Assembly (NCBI GenBank): GCA_028278305.1
Contig: JANQEP010000079.1
Coordinates: 1-33,887, forward strand
Reading direction: 5' to 3'
Length of the DNA: 33,887 bases
Source: Candidatus Gastranaerophilales bacterium
Lineage (GTDB): Bacteria; Cyanobacteriota; Vampirovibrionia; Gastranaerophilales; UBA9971
The first letter of the stretch is position 1. Every line of letters starts with the position of its first letter. A model generated the notes under the pieces. That model was not told where the DNA came from and searched no databases. It saw only the letters and a program-made list of their open reading frames with translations. A program made the position numbers and the translations under genes. Shown here in pieces: positions 21,940 through 30,770 of this stretch.

Positions 21940-23010
21940 TTATATAAAGTTAACGTGCTTAACAGTCGGATGTTTTAGCTCCCATAAACTCCTGTTAATA
22001 GCGTCTAAACGACAGGTATGTATGCATTTTTCCTTACAGTTTAGTTCCTGCCTTGCAAATTCAAGTACTTTTTTTCTTAATTCCCCGTTTAAAATATCCG
22101 TGACCGTATTATCATAAATGTTCCCAAAGTAAAAAGTATCTTCTTCCATATGTGAAATGCAGCTATATACATCACCACTGGCAGTTAAAACTGCAAATAA
22201 AGGCAAACCATAACAATGAGCATATACACGCTTTTCTTCTGTCTGCTTAATAAATGTATCCCACCTTACAACAATGGAAGTTTCTTTGGTAGCATAACTC
22301 TCAGCCTGTTTTAAATATTCAGAATACTCTTCAAAGTTATAATTATCAGGCAAATTGTATCCAAGATGGTCAGGGTGTTTGTAAAAAGGCTTAACAACAA
22401 AATAGTTTAACCCAAGATCAACGCATAACTTTGCCAGCTCAGGAATACTTTTCATGTTTTCCGGTATTGCAACTAACTGAAGGCCAAAATCTACACCCAG
22501 ATTATGTTTATTTTTAAAATCCACCGCATATTGAATATTTTTGACAACCTTATCAAAGTCGTCTGCGCAATGAATATTTTTATATGTATCCCTATTCCCG
22601 CCATTAAAAGAAAATCTTATAAATGTAAGCTTATCCAGAATCTTTTCGCTCATTTTAGGATTAAGCAAAACACCGTTAGTAAAAACACCACTGTCAATAT
22701 TGGACTCGTAAGCTGCTACTGTAAATTTTTCAAAATCTTTATGTAACAGGGGTTCTCCTGAACCTGCAAAAAGCATTGCTTTTGTCCCGTTGGCCCCGAA
22801 TTCTTTGATAGCCTGTATTGTCTTTTCTGTCTCTAATTTCAGGGATTTGTACTCCATATAATCATAGCCGCAAAACCAACACCTGTGATTGCAGTTACCA
22901 ACAGGTGATATTTCAACATAAATCGGATTAACCGGTTGTTTAATCAGGATTTTATAAGTTTCTTCAAAGTGATAAAATAATTTATGCCCATCAAGACTAT
23001 ATTTAGACAT
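21940..23010 (-). CDS. Radical SAM protein with SPASM-like C-terminal cysteines
   Basis: CNHRCWFC (CxxxCxxC), LFAGSGEPLLHKDFEKF, C-terminal CKEKCIHTC; paralogue of 29694-30770. Confidence 0.88.
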   Translation of the reverse strand: MSKYSLDGHKLFYHFEETYKILIKQPVNPIYVEISPVGNCNHRCWFCGYDYMEYKSLKLETEKTIQAIKEFGANGTKAMLFAGSGEPLLHKDFEKFTVAAYESNIDSGVFTNGVLLNPKMSEKILDKLTFIRFSFNGGNRDTYKNIHCADDFDKVVKNIQYAVDFKNKHNLGVDFGLQLVAIPENMKSIPELAKLCVDLGLNYFVVKPFYKHPDHLGYNLPDNYNFEEYSEYLKQAESYATKETSIVVRWDTFIKQTEEKRVYAHCYGLPLFAVLTASGDVYSCISHMEEDTFYFGNIYDNTVTDILNGELRKKVLEFARQELNCKEKCIHTCRLDAINRSLWELKHPTVKHVNFI

Positions 23011-23749
23011 TTACAACTCTTTTTTCTTCGGTATTAATCAGATAGCCTGTTTTTTCTATATCTGAATAAAACATTTTAACTGTATCTATTGATAATTGTT
23101 CTAAATCATAACCAATCAGGTTTGTTTTTGCCAGCAGGTTATCAGTAACCGTAATTATATGACAGCCAGCTTTTTCTGCCTCAACTATATTATGAACTTC
23201 TCTAACACTGGCCCAGAGTAATTCAATATTTTGTTTTGATTTGATAATTTCCAGGGATTCTTTAACGTCAGAAACGTAATTCCTGCCTGTATCAGCTATC
23301 CTACCCACAAATAACGATATTATTGCCGGCGTGTGCTCAGAAATAGCATCAAATGCTTCCTGGACCTGTTGTAGCGTTAAAACTGCTGTTACGTTAATTT
23401 TCACTCCCCTGGCAGAAAGATTCCTGATTACTTCTGCATATGATTCACCTTTTGTGCTGATTATAGGGATTTTAACGTAAATATTCTCCCCAAGATTTGA
23501 TAACCATAATGCTTCCTGTTCCATTTTTTTCGGTTCATCAGATGTAACCTCAAATGAAAATGGCAGGTCTTTTATTTTATTGGCAATTTTTTTTGCAAAA
23601 GTTTCATAACATGCTACTCCGGCTTTTTTCATCAAGGTCGGATTGGTCGTAAAGCCTTTTATAAAACCTTCGTTATAAAGTTTTATAATCTGTTCATAGT
23701 CAGCGCCATCCGCAAATATTTTAGTTTTAAACTCATTTAAATTCTTCAT
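23003..23749 (-). CDS. Transaldolase / fructose-6-phosphate aldolase family protein
   Basis: IFADGADYEQIIKLYNEGFIKGFTTNPTLMKKAG, ENIYVKIPIISTKGE (Schiff-base Lys), KINVTAVLTLQQ, SLFVGRIADTG. Confidence 0.88.
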   Translation of the reverse strand: MKNLNEFKTKIFADGADYEQIIKLYNEGFIKGFTTNPTLMKKAGVACYETFAKKIANKIKDLPFSFEVTSDEPKKMEQEALWLSNLGENIYVKIPIISTKGESYAEVIRNLSARGVKINVTAVLTLQQVQEAFDAISEHTPAIISLFVGRIADTGRNYVSDVKESLEIIKSKQNIELLWASVREVHNIVEAEKAGCHIITVTDNLLAKTNLIGYDLEQLSIDTVKMFYSDIEKTGYLINTEEKRVVNV

Positions 23750-24312
23750 TTGTTTTCCAGCTTCCCTATTAAGTTAACGGCTTCTTCCAGGTTCTCTGTA
23801 TTAAAGTCGGCATTTAAAGGATTCTTTCTTTTATTACCAGACTCAGGATAATTTATCAATATTGTTTTAAGACCGGATTTTTTACCGCATAAAATATCTG
23901 TATCCTGGTCACCTATAAGCCATGAGTCTTGAAGGTTTATATTATATTTTTTTTCTGCCTGCTTTATAAAGAAATTATTGGGTTTGCGGCATTCACAAGG
24001 GTCTTTGGCAGGATGGTGGTAACAATAAAAATAGTCAGTAAATTTTACATTAGCCTTTTGCATTAAAGCTTCAAATTTATCTTTAATTTTCGTAATATTT
24101 TCCATTGTTGCTTTTCCAAGAACAGAATCCGGCTGGTTTGATATTAAAAAAAAGTCAAAGCCCATTTCTTGCAATTTTTGCAGGCATTTTATCGTGTAAG
24201 AAAAAAGGGTAAAGTCCTCAGGGACATGTGGAGCTTCAAAATTATTGGTTTCAGTATTTAAAACAAGAGGATTTAATACGCCGTCCCTATCAAAGAAAAT
24301 TGCCCGGTTCAT
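23746..24312 (-). CDS. gmhB: D-glycero-manno-heptose 1,7-bisphosphate 7-phosphatase family (HAD)
   Basis: MNRAIFFDRDGVLNPLV, CYHHPAKDPCECRKPN (Zn-binding loop), SWLIGDQDTDILCGKKSGLKTILI; start ATGA-overlapped with gmhA stop. Confidence 0.82.
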   Translation of the reverse strand: MNRAIFFDRDGVLNPLVLNTETNNFEAPHVPEDFTLFSYTIKCLQKLQEMGFDFFLISNQPDSVLGKATMENITKIKDKFEALMQKANVKFTDYFYCYHHPAKDPCECRKPNNFFIKQAEKKYNINLQDSWLIGDQDTDILCGKKSGLKTILINYPESGNKRKNPLNADFNTENLEEAVNLIGKLENK

Positions 24313-24911
24313 CTTGTAACGACCTCTTCCCATTTTGTTTTACAGGCTTTTAATTCAGGGTGGGAAACCAGTAAATGCCATACTACAGCCTGAAAAGACT
24401 CGGTTAACGGGGTAATTGTATCATCAGAAATATAAGGAATCTTAATGCAGGCATCAGCGACTTCTGCTGTATAGCCCCCCTTATACCCCACTATACCGAC
24501 TGATTTTGTATTTCGGCTTTTGGCAAACTCCAGTGCTTTTATAATATTGACACTTATATTATTTTCCTTATCACCGCCACCAACAGAAAAAACTAATACG
24601 CAATCCTTTTCATTAAGGTTGCTTGTTTCTAAATATGATTTAAATACACCATCCCAGCCTTCATCATTTATTCTCGCAGAAAGTTCCGAGACATTGTCAG
24701 TCGGGGCATAAGTCTCAATACCGTTAATTTTCCTGAAGTCATTAACTGCATGAGACGCGTTAGCAGCGCTTCCTCCAACTCCAAGAATAAAAAGCCTTCC
24801 CTTTGTGTTTTTTAATTCTTTTAAAATCCTTACAGCTTTTTCTATTTCATTTATATTCAGCTGGTTTACAACTTTTATAACTCCATCTAAATAAAAATCA
24901 ATAAATTCCAC
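24309..24911 (-). CDS. gmhA: Phosphoheptose isomerase-like (SIS domain); start refined to GTG 24911
   Basis: GRLFILGVGGSAANASHAVNDFRKI, LVFSVGGGDKENNIS; GGAGG SD lies over the supplied TTG start. Confidence 0.75.
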   Translation of the reverse strand: MEFIDFYLDGVIKVVNQLNINEIEKAVRILKELKNTKGRLFILGVGGSAANASHAVNDFRKINGIETYAPTDNVSELSARINDEGWDGVFKSYLETSNLNEKDCVLVFSVGGGDKENNISVNIIKALEFAKSRNTKSVGIVGYKGGYTAEVADACIKIPYISDDTITPLTESFQAVVWHLLVSHPELKACKTKWEEVVTR

Positions 24912-24985
24912 TTTAACCTCCAATGTTTGAAATCCTTTAAATTTTATGCTAAAAAAGTCGAAAGAACAAGGATTTTGTCTGATAT

Positions 24986-26188
24986 ATGAAAAAATTTTTA
25001 AGAAATTTATCTCATAAAAAAAATTTAATAATAAGAAAAATAAAAAATCAGAATAAAAGTGAGATAGTGCTTATATCAGATGTATTCCATCCCAGGGTAG
25101 TGAAAATTGCTTATGCTTTAAGAAAAAAAAATTACAGGGTCATCCTTTTATGCAAGAATACACCAAATAATGAGGGCGTAAAAAAATTAATAAATTATTT
25201 TGACGAGGTTAATTATTACAATACTCCTCAAGAAGCATTAGTATTAGCGATAAAATATAAGCCGCTGGTTTATCACATTTTTTCCTGTTATACGTATGAC
25301 ACGCCTGAGTTTTTAATAAAAAGCAACATTGGCAAAATAGTTTTTGATAATTATGACGGGTTGCAAGGCTTTATAAAGTCCGAGACGATTAAAAGCAATG
25401 ACTGGATGCGAGGACAGGAAGTTAAAGAGCAATTTTGCCTTGAAAATGCTGACGGGTTATGTTGTAGAAGTCTGGAAACCCAGTATCAAAAAAGGAAATT
25501 TGGATATAAGTATAAAGGCGAAAGAATATTATTTTTGGACTATTGCTGGAATAATTCTACGCAGGGAAATAAAGCATCTGAGCTGACGAATCTTGAAGAA
25601 ATGCACATTGTGTACATTGGGGGAATGGCAGTAGAAAAAGAACAACCTGATTCTCCTTTGTCTTACCATTTATGGCTTGCGGAGGCGCTTGCTTCCCAAA
25701 AAATTCATTACCATATTTATCCTTCGTATAATTTAAGTGAAAAAGGCTTTAACGATAAATTCAGTGATTATATTGAACTGGAAAAGAAAACCCCTTATTT
25801 TCATCTGCATAAAAAACGTGATTATATTGAACTGCTTAATAAAATAACGCAATATAGTTACGGAATTATAATTTCCAGCAGGAAAGTCCACCCGATTGAA
25901 GGTGCAGGCCACACTATAGAAAAACATGATTATGCCATGGGTAATAAATTTTTTGATTACATAGATGCTGAACTCCCAATAATAATATCCAGCGGAAAAT
26001 TTATTAACTGGCTTTTTAAGCGTCAGGGAGTTTCTGTTAACATTACAGAAGAATCATTAACCAATAAACTTGACCCTTTAAAAGAAAAATTACCGGAACT
26101 TGCTGAAAATATCAGAGAATGTAAAAAATATTTTTGTATAACAGAAAACATACCGAGATTAATCAAATTTTATGAGGCAATTCAATGA
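24986..26188 (+). CDS. Hypothetical, possible GT-B fold glycosyltransferase
   Basis: EIVLISDVFHPRVVKIAYALRKKNYRVILLCKN resembles a GT4-like N-terminal Rossmann fold; position in glycan locus. Confidence 0.5.
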   Translation: MKKFLRNLSHKKNLIIRKIKNQNKSEIVLISDVFHPRVVKIAYALRKKNYRVILLCKNTPNNEGVKKLINYFDEVNYYNTPQEALVLAIKYKPLVYHIFSCYTYDTPEFLIKSNIGKIVFDNYDGLQGFIKSETIKSNDWMRGQEVKEQFCLENADGLCCRSLETQYQKRKFGYKYKGERILFLDYCWNNSTQGNKASELTNLEEMHIVYIGGMAVEKEQPDSPLSYHLWLAEALASQKIHYHIYPSYNLSEKGFNDKFSDYIELEKKTPYFHLHKKRDYIELLNKITQYSYGIIISSRKVHPIEGAGHTIEKHDYAMGNKFFDYIDAELPIIISSGKFINWLFKRQGVSVNITEESLTNKLDPLKEKLPELAENIRECKKYFCITENIPRLIKFYEAIQ

Positions 26189-27222
26189 GTATAAATACAT
26201 TGAACCTTGATAGTTGCTTTGAAGAATATATTAAATTATATGAACAATTTAAAATGAAAGATGTATACTATGACCCTTATTACCTAAAAGCAGTGCAAAA
26301 TGCGGAAAATTCCCTTATAGAAATATTTATTTATGAAGAAAATGGTGTAAAATGCTTAGTCCCCTATGTAAAAAGAAGAATAAACGATTTATCAATATTC
26401 AAGAATATAAAAGAAGAATTTTGGGATATATCAACCCCGCATGAGTACTCTGGAATAATTACAAACTCTCCTGATGCCAATAACTTTTATTCCTGTTTGG
26501 GAGAGTATTGTCAAAATAATAATATAATTTTTGAGTTTTCCAGATTTAACCCTTTTTTAAAAAATGAGAAATTTATAGAAAACTCTGGCTATAATTTAAT
26601 CAAATGCGCAGATAACATATATATTGGTCTAACAGATAACTTTGAAGATATTTATAAGTCTTTTCACAGGTCTGTCAGAAAAAATATTAAGCGAGCTGTT
26701 AATTCCAACCTGAAATTTCTTGAAGCAGAACCAACTGATGAAAACATAAAAATCTTTATTGAAATATATTCTGAATCAATGGACAGGCTTTGTGCTAAAA
26801 AATATTTTTATTTTAATAATGAATATTTTCAAAAATTATTAAAAGAATGCAGTCAAGCCAGGTTATTTTTTATTAAAGATAAAAATGAAATTATTGCAGC
26901 GTCAATACTTCTTCACCATGAAAACAGGGCACATCATCATTTAACCGGTTATAAAACAATTGCGCTTGATAAAAGACCTAATGATTTTATGATATATTCA
27001 CTAATACAATGGTGCCAGAACAGTAATATAGAAAAGCTTCATCTGGGGGGCGGGTCAGAACCAATAAGAGCGTTCAAAAGCAAGTTTTCACAGATGAAGA
27101 TTCCTTATTATATAGGCTATAAAATACATAATAAAGAAATCTATGACTATCTGTGTTCCGTCTGGAAAAACCATAATCCTGACAGGCAAGATATAACTTA
27201 TTACCCTCCCTATAGGTACTAA
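26185..27222 (+). CDS. FemAB-like / GNAT-fold acyl- or aminoacyltransferase
   Basis: SFHRSVRKNIKRAVNSNLKFLEAEP...IAASILLHHENRAHHHLTGYKTIALDKRPNDFMIYSLIQWCQNSNIEKLHLGGG. Confidence 0.75.
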   Translation: MSINTLNLDSCFEEYIKLYEQFKMKDVYYDPYYLKAVQNAENSLIEIFIYEENGVKCLVPYVKRRINDLSIFKNIKEEFWDISTPHEYSGIITNSPDANNFYSCLGEYCQNNNIIFEFSRFNPFLKNEKFIENSGYNLIKCADNIYIGLTDNFEDIYKSFHRSVRKNIKRAVNSNLKFLEAEPTDENIKIFIEIYSESMDRLCAKKYFYFNNEYFQKLLKECSQARLFFIKDKNEIIAASILLHHENRAHHHLTGYKTIALDKRPNDFMIYSLIQWCQNSNIEKLHLGGGSEPIRAFKSKFSQMKIPYYIGYKIHNKEIYDYLCSVWKNHNPDRQDITYYPPYRY

Positions 27223-27223
27223 A

Positions 27224-28240
27224 ATGCAAATAATTCAGCACACAAAGCCATATATTGATGATGATGAAATAAATGCAGTTATAAACCTGCTAAAAACCAG
27301 GCTTGTAAATGACGGAACTGCAGGAACTGAAGTTGTTAACAAAATTGCCGATAAAACAGGCTGCCAGGGTGGAGTTGCCGTATCTACAGGGACATTAGGT
27401 ATTCATCTTGCGTTAAAAGCTCTTGGTGTAAAAAAAGAAAATGACGAGGTTATAATTCCTGATTACGCATGCAGGTGTCTGTATGACGCAGTGGTTACAG
27501 CAGGAGGAAAACCTGTTTGTTGTGATATCAATCTTAATGACTATAGTTTAGATAATAAATATGCTGAATCGCTAATAACAAAAAATACCCGGGCAATTAT
27601 TCTGCCGCATATGTGGGGCTGCCCGGCTGATATCGATGAATTTTTAAAACTTGATGTGCCGGTAATAGAAGATTGTGCTCATACCCTGGGAGTTTTGTAT
27701 AAAGGCCAACAAGTAGGGAGCTTTGGAGATTACTCTGTTTTCAGTTTTGAAGGCAGTAAATTTATTGTTGGCGGTGAAGGCGGGTGTGTTTTATCAAGAT
27801 ATAAAGAAAACATTAAGCTGATTCAGGAGCTTAAAGCAAGTTTTCACTACAGGTTGAGCGATATAATTTCTTCGATAGTTCTTGTCCAGCTGGATAAACT
27901 TAATAAAATTATTGAAAAAAGAAGATATCTTGCCGGTATATATAATAAGGGACTGGAGGACTTTGAAAAAGCAGGTAAAGTCAAATTACCTGAGACCTTT
28001 GAAGAAAGAGAATCCGTTTTTTACAGGTTTGTTGTAAAGCTAGATTGTGAGTCAGAAAATATTATTGAAAAGGCAAATTTGAATAATATATATATAAGAA
28101 ACCCCTTATCGTCAGGACCTTTCACTGGAAAACAAAACTCGAATGAGCTTTTTAAAAAGGCGATTTCACTGCCTATATACCCTGATTTGCAAGCAGCAGA
28201 AGCTGAAAGAGTTGTAGAGTTTCTACATAAATACTTATAG
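27224..28240 (+). CDS. DegT/DnrJ/EryC1/StrS family PLP-dependent aminotransferase
   Basis: GGVAVSTGTLGIHLALKALGV, VIEDCAHTLGVLYKGQQVGSFGDYSVFSFEGSKFIVGGEGG. Confidence 0.9.
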   Translation: MQIIQHTKPYIDDDEINAVINLLKTRLVNDGTAGTEVVNKIADKTGCQGGVAVSTGTLGIHLALKALGVKKENDEVIIPDYACRCLYDAVVTAGGKPVCCDINLNDYSLDNKYAESLITKNTRAIILPHMWGCPADIDEFLKLDVPVIEDCAHTLGVLYKGQQVGSFGDYSVFSFEGSKFIVGGEGGCVLSRYKENIKLIQELKASFHYRLSDIISSIVLVQLDKLNKIIEKRRYLAGIYNKGLEDFEKAGKVKLPETFEERESVFYRFVVKLDCESENIIEKANLNNIYIRNPLSSGPFTGKQNSNELFKKAISLPIYPDLQAAEAERVVEFLHKYL

Positions 28241-28247
28241 GAGTTGA

Positions 28248-29681
28248 GTGGATTTGAAAAAATTTGTATTTATCTTGCCGAACAGTAGGTGGTTTGACTC
28301 TGCTAAATGGGAATTATATCCATATAACGTATGTCTTCTGGCTGCAATAATAAAAGATGAATATGAGGTTAAAATTATTGATGCAAACGCCAAAAATTTA
28401 TCTCTAAAACAAACAGTTCAAAAGGCTTTGGAATTTTCACCCAATTATATTGCATTATCCTGTCTTGCTGTAGAGTATTCAAAACATGCTCATGAGCTTG
28501 CAAAATCATTAAAAGAATCAATGCCAAATACCCCGGTTATTTTAGGAGGGGTTTACGGTACTTTATTGCCTGAGCATGCAATAGAGGATAAGAATTTTGA
28601 TTATCTTGTTCTGGGAGAAGGCGAAATTCGTCTTAAACAACTGTTAAAGCATATTGAGAATAAAACCTTGCCTGAAGATTTGGACGGAATTGCCTATCGA
28701 AAAGGTGATGAAGTAATTATTAAACCTCAAGAAACTTATGTTGAAGACCTTGATAACCTCCCGTACCCTGATTATAACCTTGTTGATTTTGACGATTATT
28801 GCCGGGTTAATGAAAAATTTAGCTATGCTGATACCAGGGACGCTCTTCCGGTAGCAAAAATGTATACTTCCAGGGGATGCCCTGCCGGCTGTAACTTCTG
28901 TGCTGTAGAGCATATTGCGGGGAAGAGATTCAGGAAAAGGTCTGTTGAAAGCATTCTGGATGAAATAGAATTTATGATTCAGAAATATAAGGTAAAAGAA
29001 ATTTTATTTTATGATGATAATCTTATTTTTGATATTAAAAGAGCAAAAGAACTCTGCAAGGGCATAATAAAAAGACAATTCAATATAAAATTCAAATGTC
29101 CTAATATAGCTGTTTACTGTTTAGATAATGAACTAATGGATTTAATGAAAGAAGCCGGGTTTACAATGCTTGTTTTTGCCATAGAGTCCGCTAATGACAG
29201 AATTTTGAAATATGTGATGGGCAAACCCTTAAGTATAGAGGGAGTAAAAGAAAAAGTGGAATACGCTAAAAAACTTGGGTTCAGATGTGCTGCTTTATTT
29301 GTTATCGGCAGTCCCGGAGAAACCTGGCAGGAAATAAGAAACTCTTTTGCTTTTGCAGAAAAGCTTGATGTATATTGTCATTTTTCTATTGCAACGCCGC
29401 TCCCAAAAACAAGGTTATATAACGATGCGGTAAAAGAGAATTTGCTTATTGACGGTTTCTCATTTTTCTCTGGATCAGGGTGCTCAAAAGGCTGGATAGA
29501 AACAGATGAATTTACTGCTTTTGACCTTGAAGTTTTAAGAGCATATGATTGGGAGAGAATTAATTTTTCTACCCCGGAAAAAATGAAAAATGCTGTGGAA
29601 TTTTTTAAGCTACCGGAAAAGGAGATTCTTGAGTGGTCAAAAGGTGCAACAGAAAGTGTAAGAAAAAGGTTTTACAAGTAA
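28248..29681 (+). CDS. B12-binding domain radical SAM protein (BchE-like class)
   Basis: N-terminal Rossmann VILGGVYGTLLPEHAIEDKNFDYLVLGEGE; YTSRGCPAGCNFCAVEHIAGKRFRKRS (CxxxCxxC); GTG start with taggag SD. Confidence 0.9.
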   Translation: MDLKKFVFILPNSRWFDSAKWELYPYNVCLLAAIIKDEYEVKIIDANAKNLSLKQTVQKALEFSPNYIALSCLAVEYSKHAHELAKSLKESMPNTPVILGGVYGTLLPEHAIEDKNFDYLVLGEGEIRLKQLLKHIENKTLPEDLDGIAYRKGDEVIIKPQETYVEDLDNLPYPDYNLVDFDDYCRVNEKFSYADTRDALPVAKMYTSRGCPAGCNFCAVEHIAGKRFRKRSVESILDEIEFMIQKYKVKEILFYDDNLIFDIKRAKELCKGIIKRQFNIKFKCPNIAVYCLDNELMDLMKEAGFTMLVFAIESANDRILKYVMGKPLSIEGVKEKVEYAKKLGFRCAALFVIGSPGETWQEIRNSFAFAEKLDVYCHFSIATPLPKTRLYNDAVKENLLIDGFSFFSGSGCSKGWIETDEFTAFDLEVLRAYDWERINFSTPEKMKNAVEFFKLPEKEILEWSKGATESVRKRFYK

Positions 29682-29693
29682 AAGGTTTATAAA

Positions 29694-30770
29694 ATGAAAA
29701 TTCAAAGACTCGGTTTTGAAAAAGTTTTTTACCAGATTGATCAATTATATGATTTTTATAAAAAAGAGGATAACTATCCTGTCCACATTACAGTCGGCTT
29801 AACGTCTTTTTGTAACCATAAATGTGTGTTTTGTTATGGAGATTATGAAACTTCAGACCCTCGCAAAAATATTTCAATTGATGCTGACAGGCTGCTGGAA
29901 ATCTTAAAAGAAATGCATGAATGCGGTTTAAAGTCGATTTCACTGGTTGGCACCGGTGAACCGTTAATATATAAAGATTTTATAAAAATAATTCAGGGAA
30001 TAAAAAAAATAGGCCTTGACCTTGCAATCTACACTAATGGCGCCAGGTTACAGGAAGATATTCAGGATGCGGTCCTTGAATGCTGCACCTGGTTCAGGAT
30101 AAGCTGTAATGCTGCTGATACTGAAATGCATAATAAAGTTCACCAGGTTAAAGATGAATTTGAAATGATTGTGGAAAATGTACAAAAAGCAGTAGAAAAA
30201 AGAAACGCATTGAAAAAGAAATTCCCGACAGTTGGAGTCCAGTTTGTTGGTTACGAGGAAAACTACCATCAAATTTACGATGCTGCAAAATTATGGAAAG
30301 AAGCAGGCGTAGATTATTTTGCAATTAAACCTATGTATAAACAGGAAAAAAATAAATATATTCCCCCGATGCTGGAGGATTATGACAAAGCTGAAAAACT
30401 AATGACCAGGGCATTAGAGCTTGAAGACGAAAAATTTAAAGTATACGCAAAATTCGAACAATTTAAGGAAGTAATTGAGCAAGATCCTAAAAGGGAATAC
30501 GGAAAATGTTATGGTCATGCATTTTCTACAGCATTGTTAGCAGATGGAAATTTTTATCTCTGTGGAAATTTACACAGCGAAGAAAGATACTCATTTGGAA
30601 GTATTTATGATAGAGGTTTTAAGGATATCTGGTATAGCGAAAAAAGAAAAAAAGTAATTAAAAATATTAATTTTGCTAAATGCCCTGTAAGATGCAGATG
30701 TCACCCTTTGAACTTGATTTTATGGGATTTAAAACATCCTGATCCTAATATTCACCCCAATTTTCTTTAA
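29694..30770 (+). CDS. Radical SAM protein with SPASM-like C-terminal cysteines
   Basis: CNHKCVFC, LVGTGEPLIYKDFIKI, C-terminal CPVRCRC; paralogue of 21940-23010. Confidence 0.88.
   Translation: MKIQRLGFEKVFYQIDQLYDFYKKEDNYPVHITVGLTSFCNHKCVFCYGDYETSDPRKNISIDADRLLEILKEMHECGLKSISLVGTGEPLIYKDFIKIIQGIKKIGLDLAIYTNGARLQEDIQDAVLECCTWFRISCNAADTEMHNKVHQVKDEFEMIVENVQKAVEKRNALKKKFPTVGVQFVGYEENYHQIYDAAKLWKEAGVDYFAIKPMYKQEKNKYIPPMLEDYDKAEKLMTRALELEDEKFKVYAKFEQFKEVIEQDPKREYGKCYGHAFSTALLADGNFYLCGNLHSEERYSFGSIYDRGFKDIWYSEKRKKVIKNINFAKCPVRCRCHPLNLILWDLKHPDPNIHPNFL

Follow-up and report, generated by a model that had tools for sequence, protein, structure and literature searches.

A widespread SIS-HAD-transaldolase operon as a putative heptose supply module, overlapped by a radical SAM gene in a Gastranaerophilales genome

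Introduction

In known heptose pathways, sedoheptulose 7-phosphate is borrowed from housekeeping metabolism. A stretch of 33,887 nucleotides from Candidatus Gastranaerophilales bacterium (assembly GCA_028278305.1, contig JANQEP010000079.1; hereafter the window), which forms contig C11 of a metagenome-assembled genome (MAG; 2.17 Mb, 89.8% complete), raises the question of whether such a pathway may carry its own supply step. Four intact minus-strand open reading frames (ORFs) at positions 21940–24911 encode a SIS-domain isomerase (SIS), a HAD phosphatase (HAD), a small transaldolase (TAL), and a radical SAM protein (rSAM). What would such a unit make, and does the radical enzyme translated last belong to it? 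The reading favored here, with a probability of about 0.68, is that the translationally coupled unit channels pentose phosphate carbon into heptose for the surrounding surface glycan, and that rSAM then modifies the heptose. Labels beginning with L, G, and C below denote loci, genomes, and contigs of the MAG, respectively. The features of the unit are as follows.

24917..24921, minus strand: Shine-Dalgarno sequence GGAGG of the SIS gene, read from the sequence
24309..24911, minus strand: SIS-domain isomerase, divergent GmhA relative; 200 amino acids, GTG start, first gene of the unit, Pfam SIS_2
23746..24312, minus strand: HAD-IIIA phosphatase, GmhB-like; 188 amino acids, ATGA overlap with SIS
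23003..23749, minus strand: small transaldolase, TIGR02134-type; 248 amino acids, ATGA overlap with HAD
21940..23010, minus strand: radical SAM protein with a SPASM/twitch-type C-terminus; 356 amino acids, 8-bp overlap with TAL, last gene

The SIS gene starts with the GTG at 24911, five bases downstream of GGAGG, and the successive overlaps measure 4 bp (ATGA), 4 bp (ATGA), and 8 bp. The overlap-coupled four-gene unit described in an earlier note on this DNA, made from the sequence alone, is thus confirmed, including the end coordinate of the SIS gene.

The SIS-HAD-TAL operon in genomes and phages

A profile scan with the SIS clade confirmed at least 574 loci in GTDB genomes. The 80 nearest relatives, a sample biased towards close ones, were analyzed in detail and span more than 18 phyla, archaea included (Methanoperedens, Methanospirillum). 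Within 3.5 kb of their SIS genes, plain phmmer detected TAL at 68 loci, a nucleotidyltransferase at 66, HAD at 59, and a GHMP (HddA-like) kinase at 57, with many contigs ending nearby. Chance cannot account for the SIS-HAD-TAL order, which is repeated in hundreds of genomes. In Rhizobium sp. CB3060, genes for an epimerase, a nucleotide-sugar dehydrogenase, an SDR protein, a Gfo/Idh oxidoreductase, a GHMP kinase, and a nucleotidyltransferase are followed by SIS, HAD, and TAL, and Lawsonia plasmid 3 carries an equal set. The best family of the Rhizobium kinase is HddA, and those of the nucleotidyltransferase are MurU, archaeal GlmU, and HddC; the operon enzymes are only HddA-like and MurU/HddC-like, scoring far below the cut-offs. 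A literature search that paired transaldolase with hddA, gmhA, capsule, or phage turned up no account of this operon, most subscription journals lying outside its coverage. The SIS-HAD-TAL operon is widespread and apparently undescribed.

The nine-gene form of the operon, with an epimerase, a nucleotide-sugar dehydrogenase, an SDR protein, a Gfo/Idh protein, an HddA-like kinase, a nucleotidyltransferase, SIS, HAD, and TAL, was also seen at L011 (838–8717) and at many other genome loci. Its first four genes suggest an oxidized or rearranged heptose product.

The same profile matched 146 viral contigs; in the best 80 of these, TAL lies near SIS in 70 and HAD in 69. The T4-like phages L118, L151, L158, L164, L171, and L187 carry a compact SIS-HAD-TAL-(GT)-GHMP kinase cassette, where GT is a glycosyltransferase. 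In L158, a CTP-transferase-like protein, SIS, HAD, TAL, a GT1-type glycosyltransferase, and a GHMP kinase stand in a row that adjoins genes for PhoH, an exonuclease, and a phage RNA-binding protein. The layout of L118, L171, and L187 is similar, with the CTP-transferase-like gene in front of the cassette in all four phages, and the L158 protein matches the PHROG heptose kinase/adenylyltransferase family. The cassette looks like a complete phage-encoded route to nucleotide heptose. Being self-contained, it is also the strongest argument for assigning TAL to nucleotide-heptose synthesis rather than to central metabolism.

The radical SAM protein

The rSAM gene is not a member of this conserved operon. 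It was found at none of about 180 SIS-clade loci besides the window, no match at E 1e-30 was detected in the 288 other genomes of the class, and the four-gene order with rSAM was found nowhere else. The gene order highlighted by the earlier note thus recurs across genomes for SIS, HAD, and TAL, whereas the view of rSAM as part of a conserved four-gene unit is not supported.

The 356-residue protein matches Pfam Radical_SAM (PF04055, 71 bits) and SPASM, and no other domain was found in the Pfam scan. Its CxxxCxxC motif (C40, C44, C47) places it in the radical SAM superfamily. Four further cysteines (266, 284, 329, 333) are invariant in 20 relatives, and the seven-cysteine SPASM motif with two auxiliary clusters is absent. 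Twitch-type radical SAM enzymes hold one auxiliary cluster, and the presence of four extra cysteines, not seven, suggests a single, twitch-like auxiliary cluster in rSAM. For these reasons of domain content and cysteine number, maturation of a ribosomally synthesized and post-translationally modified peptide was set aside as a function. The AlphaFold2 (AF2) model (predicted local distance difference test, pLDDT, 89.6) is closest in fold to DesII, then to the peptide maturases SuiB and SkfB, and then to BlsE.

Searching viral contigs with the single rSAM protein gave no match, and the relatives in viral contigs were found with a four-row alignment query. The relatives found in viral contigs, in plasmids, and in other Cyanobacteriota have as neighbors GmhA/SIS genes, genes for an HldE-like kinase and a nucleotidyltransferase, or transketolase genes in split form. 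Heptose families are the best for most of these neighbors, all at scores below the curated equivalog cut-offs. Distant rSAM loci served as the control; B12-rSAM, used as a control query set, gave no match. Since the raw counts of HldE-like kinases (10/26 loci in the nearer set vs. 10/51 distant rSAM loci) were not decisive, a clade-wise count on a tree was used. In a tree of 56 rSAM proteins, the window protein falls into a 25-member clade with a support of 96. Heptose genes occur within 4 kb at 16/25 loci of this clade, compared with 0/15 loci where only other clades are present (Fisher p 4e-5), and at 15/24 with the window left out (p 9e-5); the clade was picked after the tree was seen and the test ignores relatedness, so that these p values are a guide only. 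At L323 of the Cyanobacteriota genome G323, genes for rSAM, HAD, TAL, an epimerase, and an HldE-like protein follow one another on one strand, and on L246, an IMG/VR contig with a terminase-like gene near the cassette, the row is rSAM, HldE-like, SIS, rSAM.

Two further observations were made around this clade. The HldE-like proteins beside it at L006 (11889–13418), L322 (5968–7491), L263 (6502–7998), and L325 (11299–12756) have a swapped order, with the nucleotidyltransferase first and the kinase second. Split transketolase-like gene pairs adjoin the clade at L235, L242, L245, L247, L250, L252, L254, and L263, and are possibly an alternative source of sedoheptulose 7-phosphate.

The strongest competing explanation accepts the heptose supply and regards rSAM as a gene of the polysaccharide cluster with no relation to it, whose overlap with TAL is coincidental and whose product acts on another sugar, a lipid, or a peptide group. 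It would account for the missing rSAM gene at the SIS-clade loci, rSAM genes are abundant in surface-glycan clusters, and a second rSAM paralogue in the window (29694–30770, 31% identity) stands beside an aminotransferase and a B12-rSAM gene with no heptose gene nearby. Against this stand the clade-specific heptose neighborhoods, the independent rSAM-HAD-TAL run in L323, and the 8-bp overlap with TAL, and we rate this explanation at somewhat less than even odds. Tailoring of heptose by rSAM is plausible. The earlier note had left the substrate between the heptose and a linked peptide; clade neighbors and the DesII-like fold lend the heptose indirect support, which turns a guess into a hypothesis backed by comparison, and the domain content and cysteine number make the peptide less likely. 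More tentatively, with a chance that falls a little short of one half, rSAM may found a new enzyme clade that modifies heptose phosphate or nucleoside diphosphate (NDP)-heptose, with transaldolase- or transketolase-fed modules in bacteria and phages.

The SIS isomerase

The SIS protein reaches 55.5 bits against the GmhA model TIGR00441, far from the cut-off of 209.45, and shares 55–57% identity with its Rhizobium and Lawsonia orthologues (55% with Rhizobium sp. CB3060). Its AF2 model (pLDDT 92.9) has a GmhA-type SIS fold: the top Foldseek matches are all GmhA structures (TM 0.77–0.78, E 8e-12), led in the PDB by 2X3Y, with the product-bound 2XBL also among the best. The zinc ligands of Burkholderia pseudomallei GmhA are H64, E68, Q175, and H183 (PMC5705639). 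The corresponding residues in SIS are H58, D62, E175, and H183 (numbered from the TTG at 24923), which gives a His-Asp-Glu-His metal site in place of the canonical His-Glu-Gln-His. This set is invariant in 36 members of the SIS clade, and the same alignment shows it in the Solidesulfovibrio protein at L006. The phosphate loop carries a six-residue insertion (STSGN-S in Escherichia coli, SVGGGDKENNIS in the window). As the GmhA fold is kept while the score, ligands, and phosphate loop diverge, SIS is, by sequence and model, a metal isomerase that resembles GmhA but belongs to a clade of its own, with a presumed heptose substrate.

These changes lend themselves to another explanation, in which the altered active site leads SIS, HAD, and TAL to another product, such as a different aldose phosphate derived from a ketose. 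The His-Asp-Glu-His site and the rebuilt loop in all clade members compared would fit, as would the low scores of the operon kinase and nucleotidyltransferase against the HddA and MurU/HddC cut-offs. Yet the best family of the kinase is HddA, GmhB models are among the best for HAD, the SIS fold is matched best by GmhA structures, the product complex included, and the phage nucleotidyltransferase matches a heptose PHROG family. A different sugar is therefore considered unlikely.

The HAD phosphatase and the transaldolase

HAD scores 101.5 bits against PRK08942 (cut-off 178) and 78 bits against TIGR00213 (cut-off 149.6), both GmhB models, and its closest PDB match is E. coli GmhB. The DxD pair is kept (D9 and D11, matching D11 and D13 of E. 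coli GmhB), and C98/H100/C107/C109 match the zinc site C92/H94/C107/C109.

TAL exceeds the TIGR02134 cut-off (299.7 vs. 281.95 bits). Aligned with E. coli FsaA, it keeps the Schiff-base lysine (K93 = K85) and has E67 and F147 in place of Q59 and Y131. In work cited in PMC13259622, swapping the residues that organize this catalytic water is reported to interconvert aldolase and transaldolase activity. By sequence, the residues of TAL are transaldolase-type rather than fructose-6-phosphate aldolase-type, and the latter assignment was ruled out by the Glu and Phe at the Gln59 and Tyr131 positions.

TAL is the sole TAL_FSA gene in the MAG and across 117 genomes of relatives, the MAG included. The TAL_FSA model matched in none of the 116 sampled relatives of the MAG's order and in 10/14 control genomes, so that this order seems to run pentose phosphate metabolism with no TAL_FSA protein. 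The idea that TAL is a housekeeping pentose phosphate enzyme merely placed in a glycan cluster can draw on its being the only such gene in the MAG, and on TIGR02134 being defined, by family name only, for housekeeping-type transaldolases of Staphylococcus-like genomes. It is quite improbable in view of the 116 relatives, a transketolase N-half gene in the MAG, and the coupling of TAL to SIS and HAD, which is seen both in the window and in the majority of related operons, phages included.

The widespread trio, the GmhA-like fold, the GmhB and transaldolase residues, and the absence of TAL in relatives together give good support, at the level of sequence, to the dedicated heptose supply proposed in the earlier note, the trio elsewhere being a conserved operon beside an HddA-like kinase and a nucleotidyltransferase. 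The names gmhA and gmhB given there hold for the families; both proteins fall below the curated cut-offs.

Host lineage, missing steps, and genomic surroundings

The SIS clade occurs in 26/289 genomes of the class; besides the MAG, all of these belong to two other families, often with HAD, TAL, a GHMP kinase, or a nucleotidyltransferase close by. From this distribution, the trio probably arrived in one piece by lateral transfer from the widespread operon, with the HddA-like kinase and the nucleotidyltransferase left behind. In the TAL tree the window protein lies near Methanoperedens/Methanospirillum without starred support, and in the SIS tree it has no supported placement, so no donor is named.

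The window encodes no heptose kinase or nucleotidyltransferase among the ORFs scanned, as the earlier note had remarked, and its suggestion to look for hddA/hddC or hldE gave a divided result. No HddA was found in the MAG, whose single GHMP kinase appears to be a ThrB-like homoserine kinase, and HldE-type genes lie on other contigs: on C63, a heptose kinase gene that exceeds the rfaE_dom_I cut-off is followed directly downstream by an adenylyltransferase-like gene, and C44 carries a second, weaker rfaE-domain kinase. These HldE-type genes could supply the missing steps in trans. A canonical GmhA, distinct from the window SIS, is encoded on C70. Least probable among the alternatives is a broken remnant, in which a trio that arrived without kinase and nucleotidyltransferase has ceased to function: the lack of HddA and the long end branches of TAL and SIS would agree with it, but the ORFs are intact, catalytic residues and overlaps are preserved, and HldE-type enzymes are available in trans.

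The unit sits within a surface-glycan region. Around it are genes for glycosyltransferases, FkbM and other methyltransferases, sulfotransferases, a DegT aminotransferase, and a FemAB-type protein, and the left end of the window carries LpxK and a GT9 heptosyltransferase. In tetranucleotide composition, the unit and the rest of the cluster are equally close to four other MAG contigs (correlations of 0.96 and 0.97). Window positions 24986–30770 and the Azospirillum oryzae plasmid locus L007 (11911–21528) have relatives of the second rSAM, B12-rSAM, FemAB-type, and 400-residue protein (24986–26188) genes in common, which suggests a second conserved glycan-modification block beside the trio.

Proposed pathway and significance

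In the proposed pathway, TAL would form sedoheptulose 7-phosphate from fructose 6-phosphate and erythrose 4-phosphate, and SIS, whose fold and ligand positions are those of GmhA, would convert it to aldoheptose 7-phosphate at its GmhA-type metal site. The 1-phosphate may be added by a kinase encoded elsewhere in the genome, the HldE-type pair on C63 being the simplest source. HAD would then take off the 7-phosphate in the manner of GmhB, and activation of the heptose would fall to a nucleotidyltransferase. Finally, rSAM, made last, may carry out a DesII-like radical modification of the heptose, probably as a phosphate or nucleotide sugar.

Several points weigh against this pathway. Two of the four SIS metal ligands differ from those of canonical GmhA and the phosphate loop is rebuilt, so that the substrate could be another ketose phosphate; mutation of any of the four zinc ligands is reported to reduce GmhA activity (PMC5705639). 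No dedicated kinase or nucleotidyltransferase adjoins the trio here. The HldE-like kinases near rSAM score below the curated cut-offs, and heptose core genes and transketolase-like genes are both missing from the surroundings of the in-clade rSAM loci L236, L240, L243, L244, and L249. No measured activity was found for the enzymes here or their clade.

If the pathway holds, the heptose supply step is built in, both here and in the operon across many phyla and T4-like phages. GmhA is under study as an antimicrobial target, and the metal site of the operon isomerase differs from that of this target. Tailoring of heptose by the rSAM clade, if true, would extend surface-glycan chemistry by a new type of reaction and make radical chemistry on C7 sugars a widespread means of diversifying surface glycans; the clade and its neighbors are a direct list of candidate enzymes.

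Comparison with known systems

The order of chemistry in the full operon (SIS, HddA-like kinase, GmhB-like HAD, HddC/MurU-like nucleotidyltransferase) equals that of the known heptose pathway. It differs in that the transaldolase is operon-encoded, in that SIS, HAD, kinase, and nucleotidyltransferase score far below the curated cut-offs, and in the metal site and phosphate loop of SIS. The window unit differs further in having no kinase or nucleotidyltransferase inside the window. The ADP-heptose pathway (GmhA, HldE, GmhB, HldD) is represented elsewhere in the MAG by the canonical GmhA and a split HldE-type kinase/adenylyltransferase, which may fill the missing steps; these genes lie on other contigs, and the window SIS is not that GmhA.

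DesII, a radical SAM deaminase of a dTDP-aminosugar, is the best structural match of the rSAM model, as would fit a radical enzyme acting on sugars. However, the two share only about 17–18% identity and no operon, and rSAM has a C-terminal signature of its own, LW..HP..H.NF. Cyanophage TalC proteins are phage-borne small transaldolases, with only about 30–34% identity to the window TAL. The T4-like heptose cassettes are a separate set, in which the transaldolase is accompanied by SIS, HAD, a GHMP kinase, and a nucleotidyltransferase.
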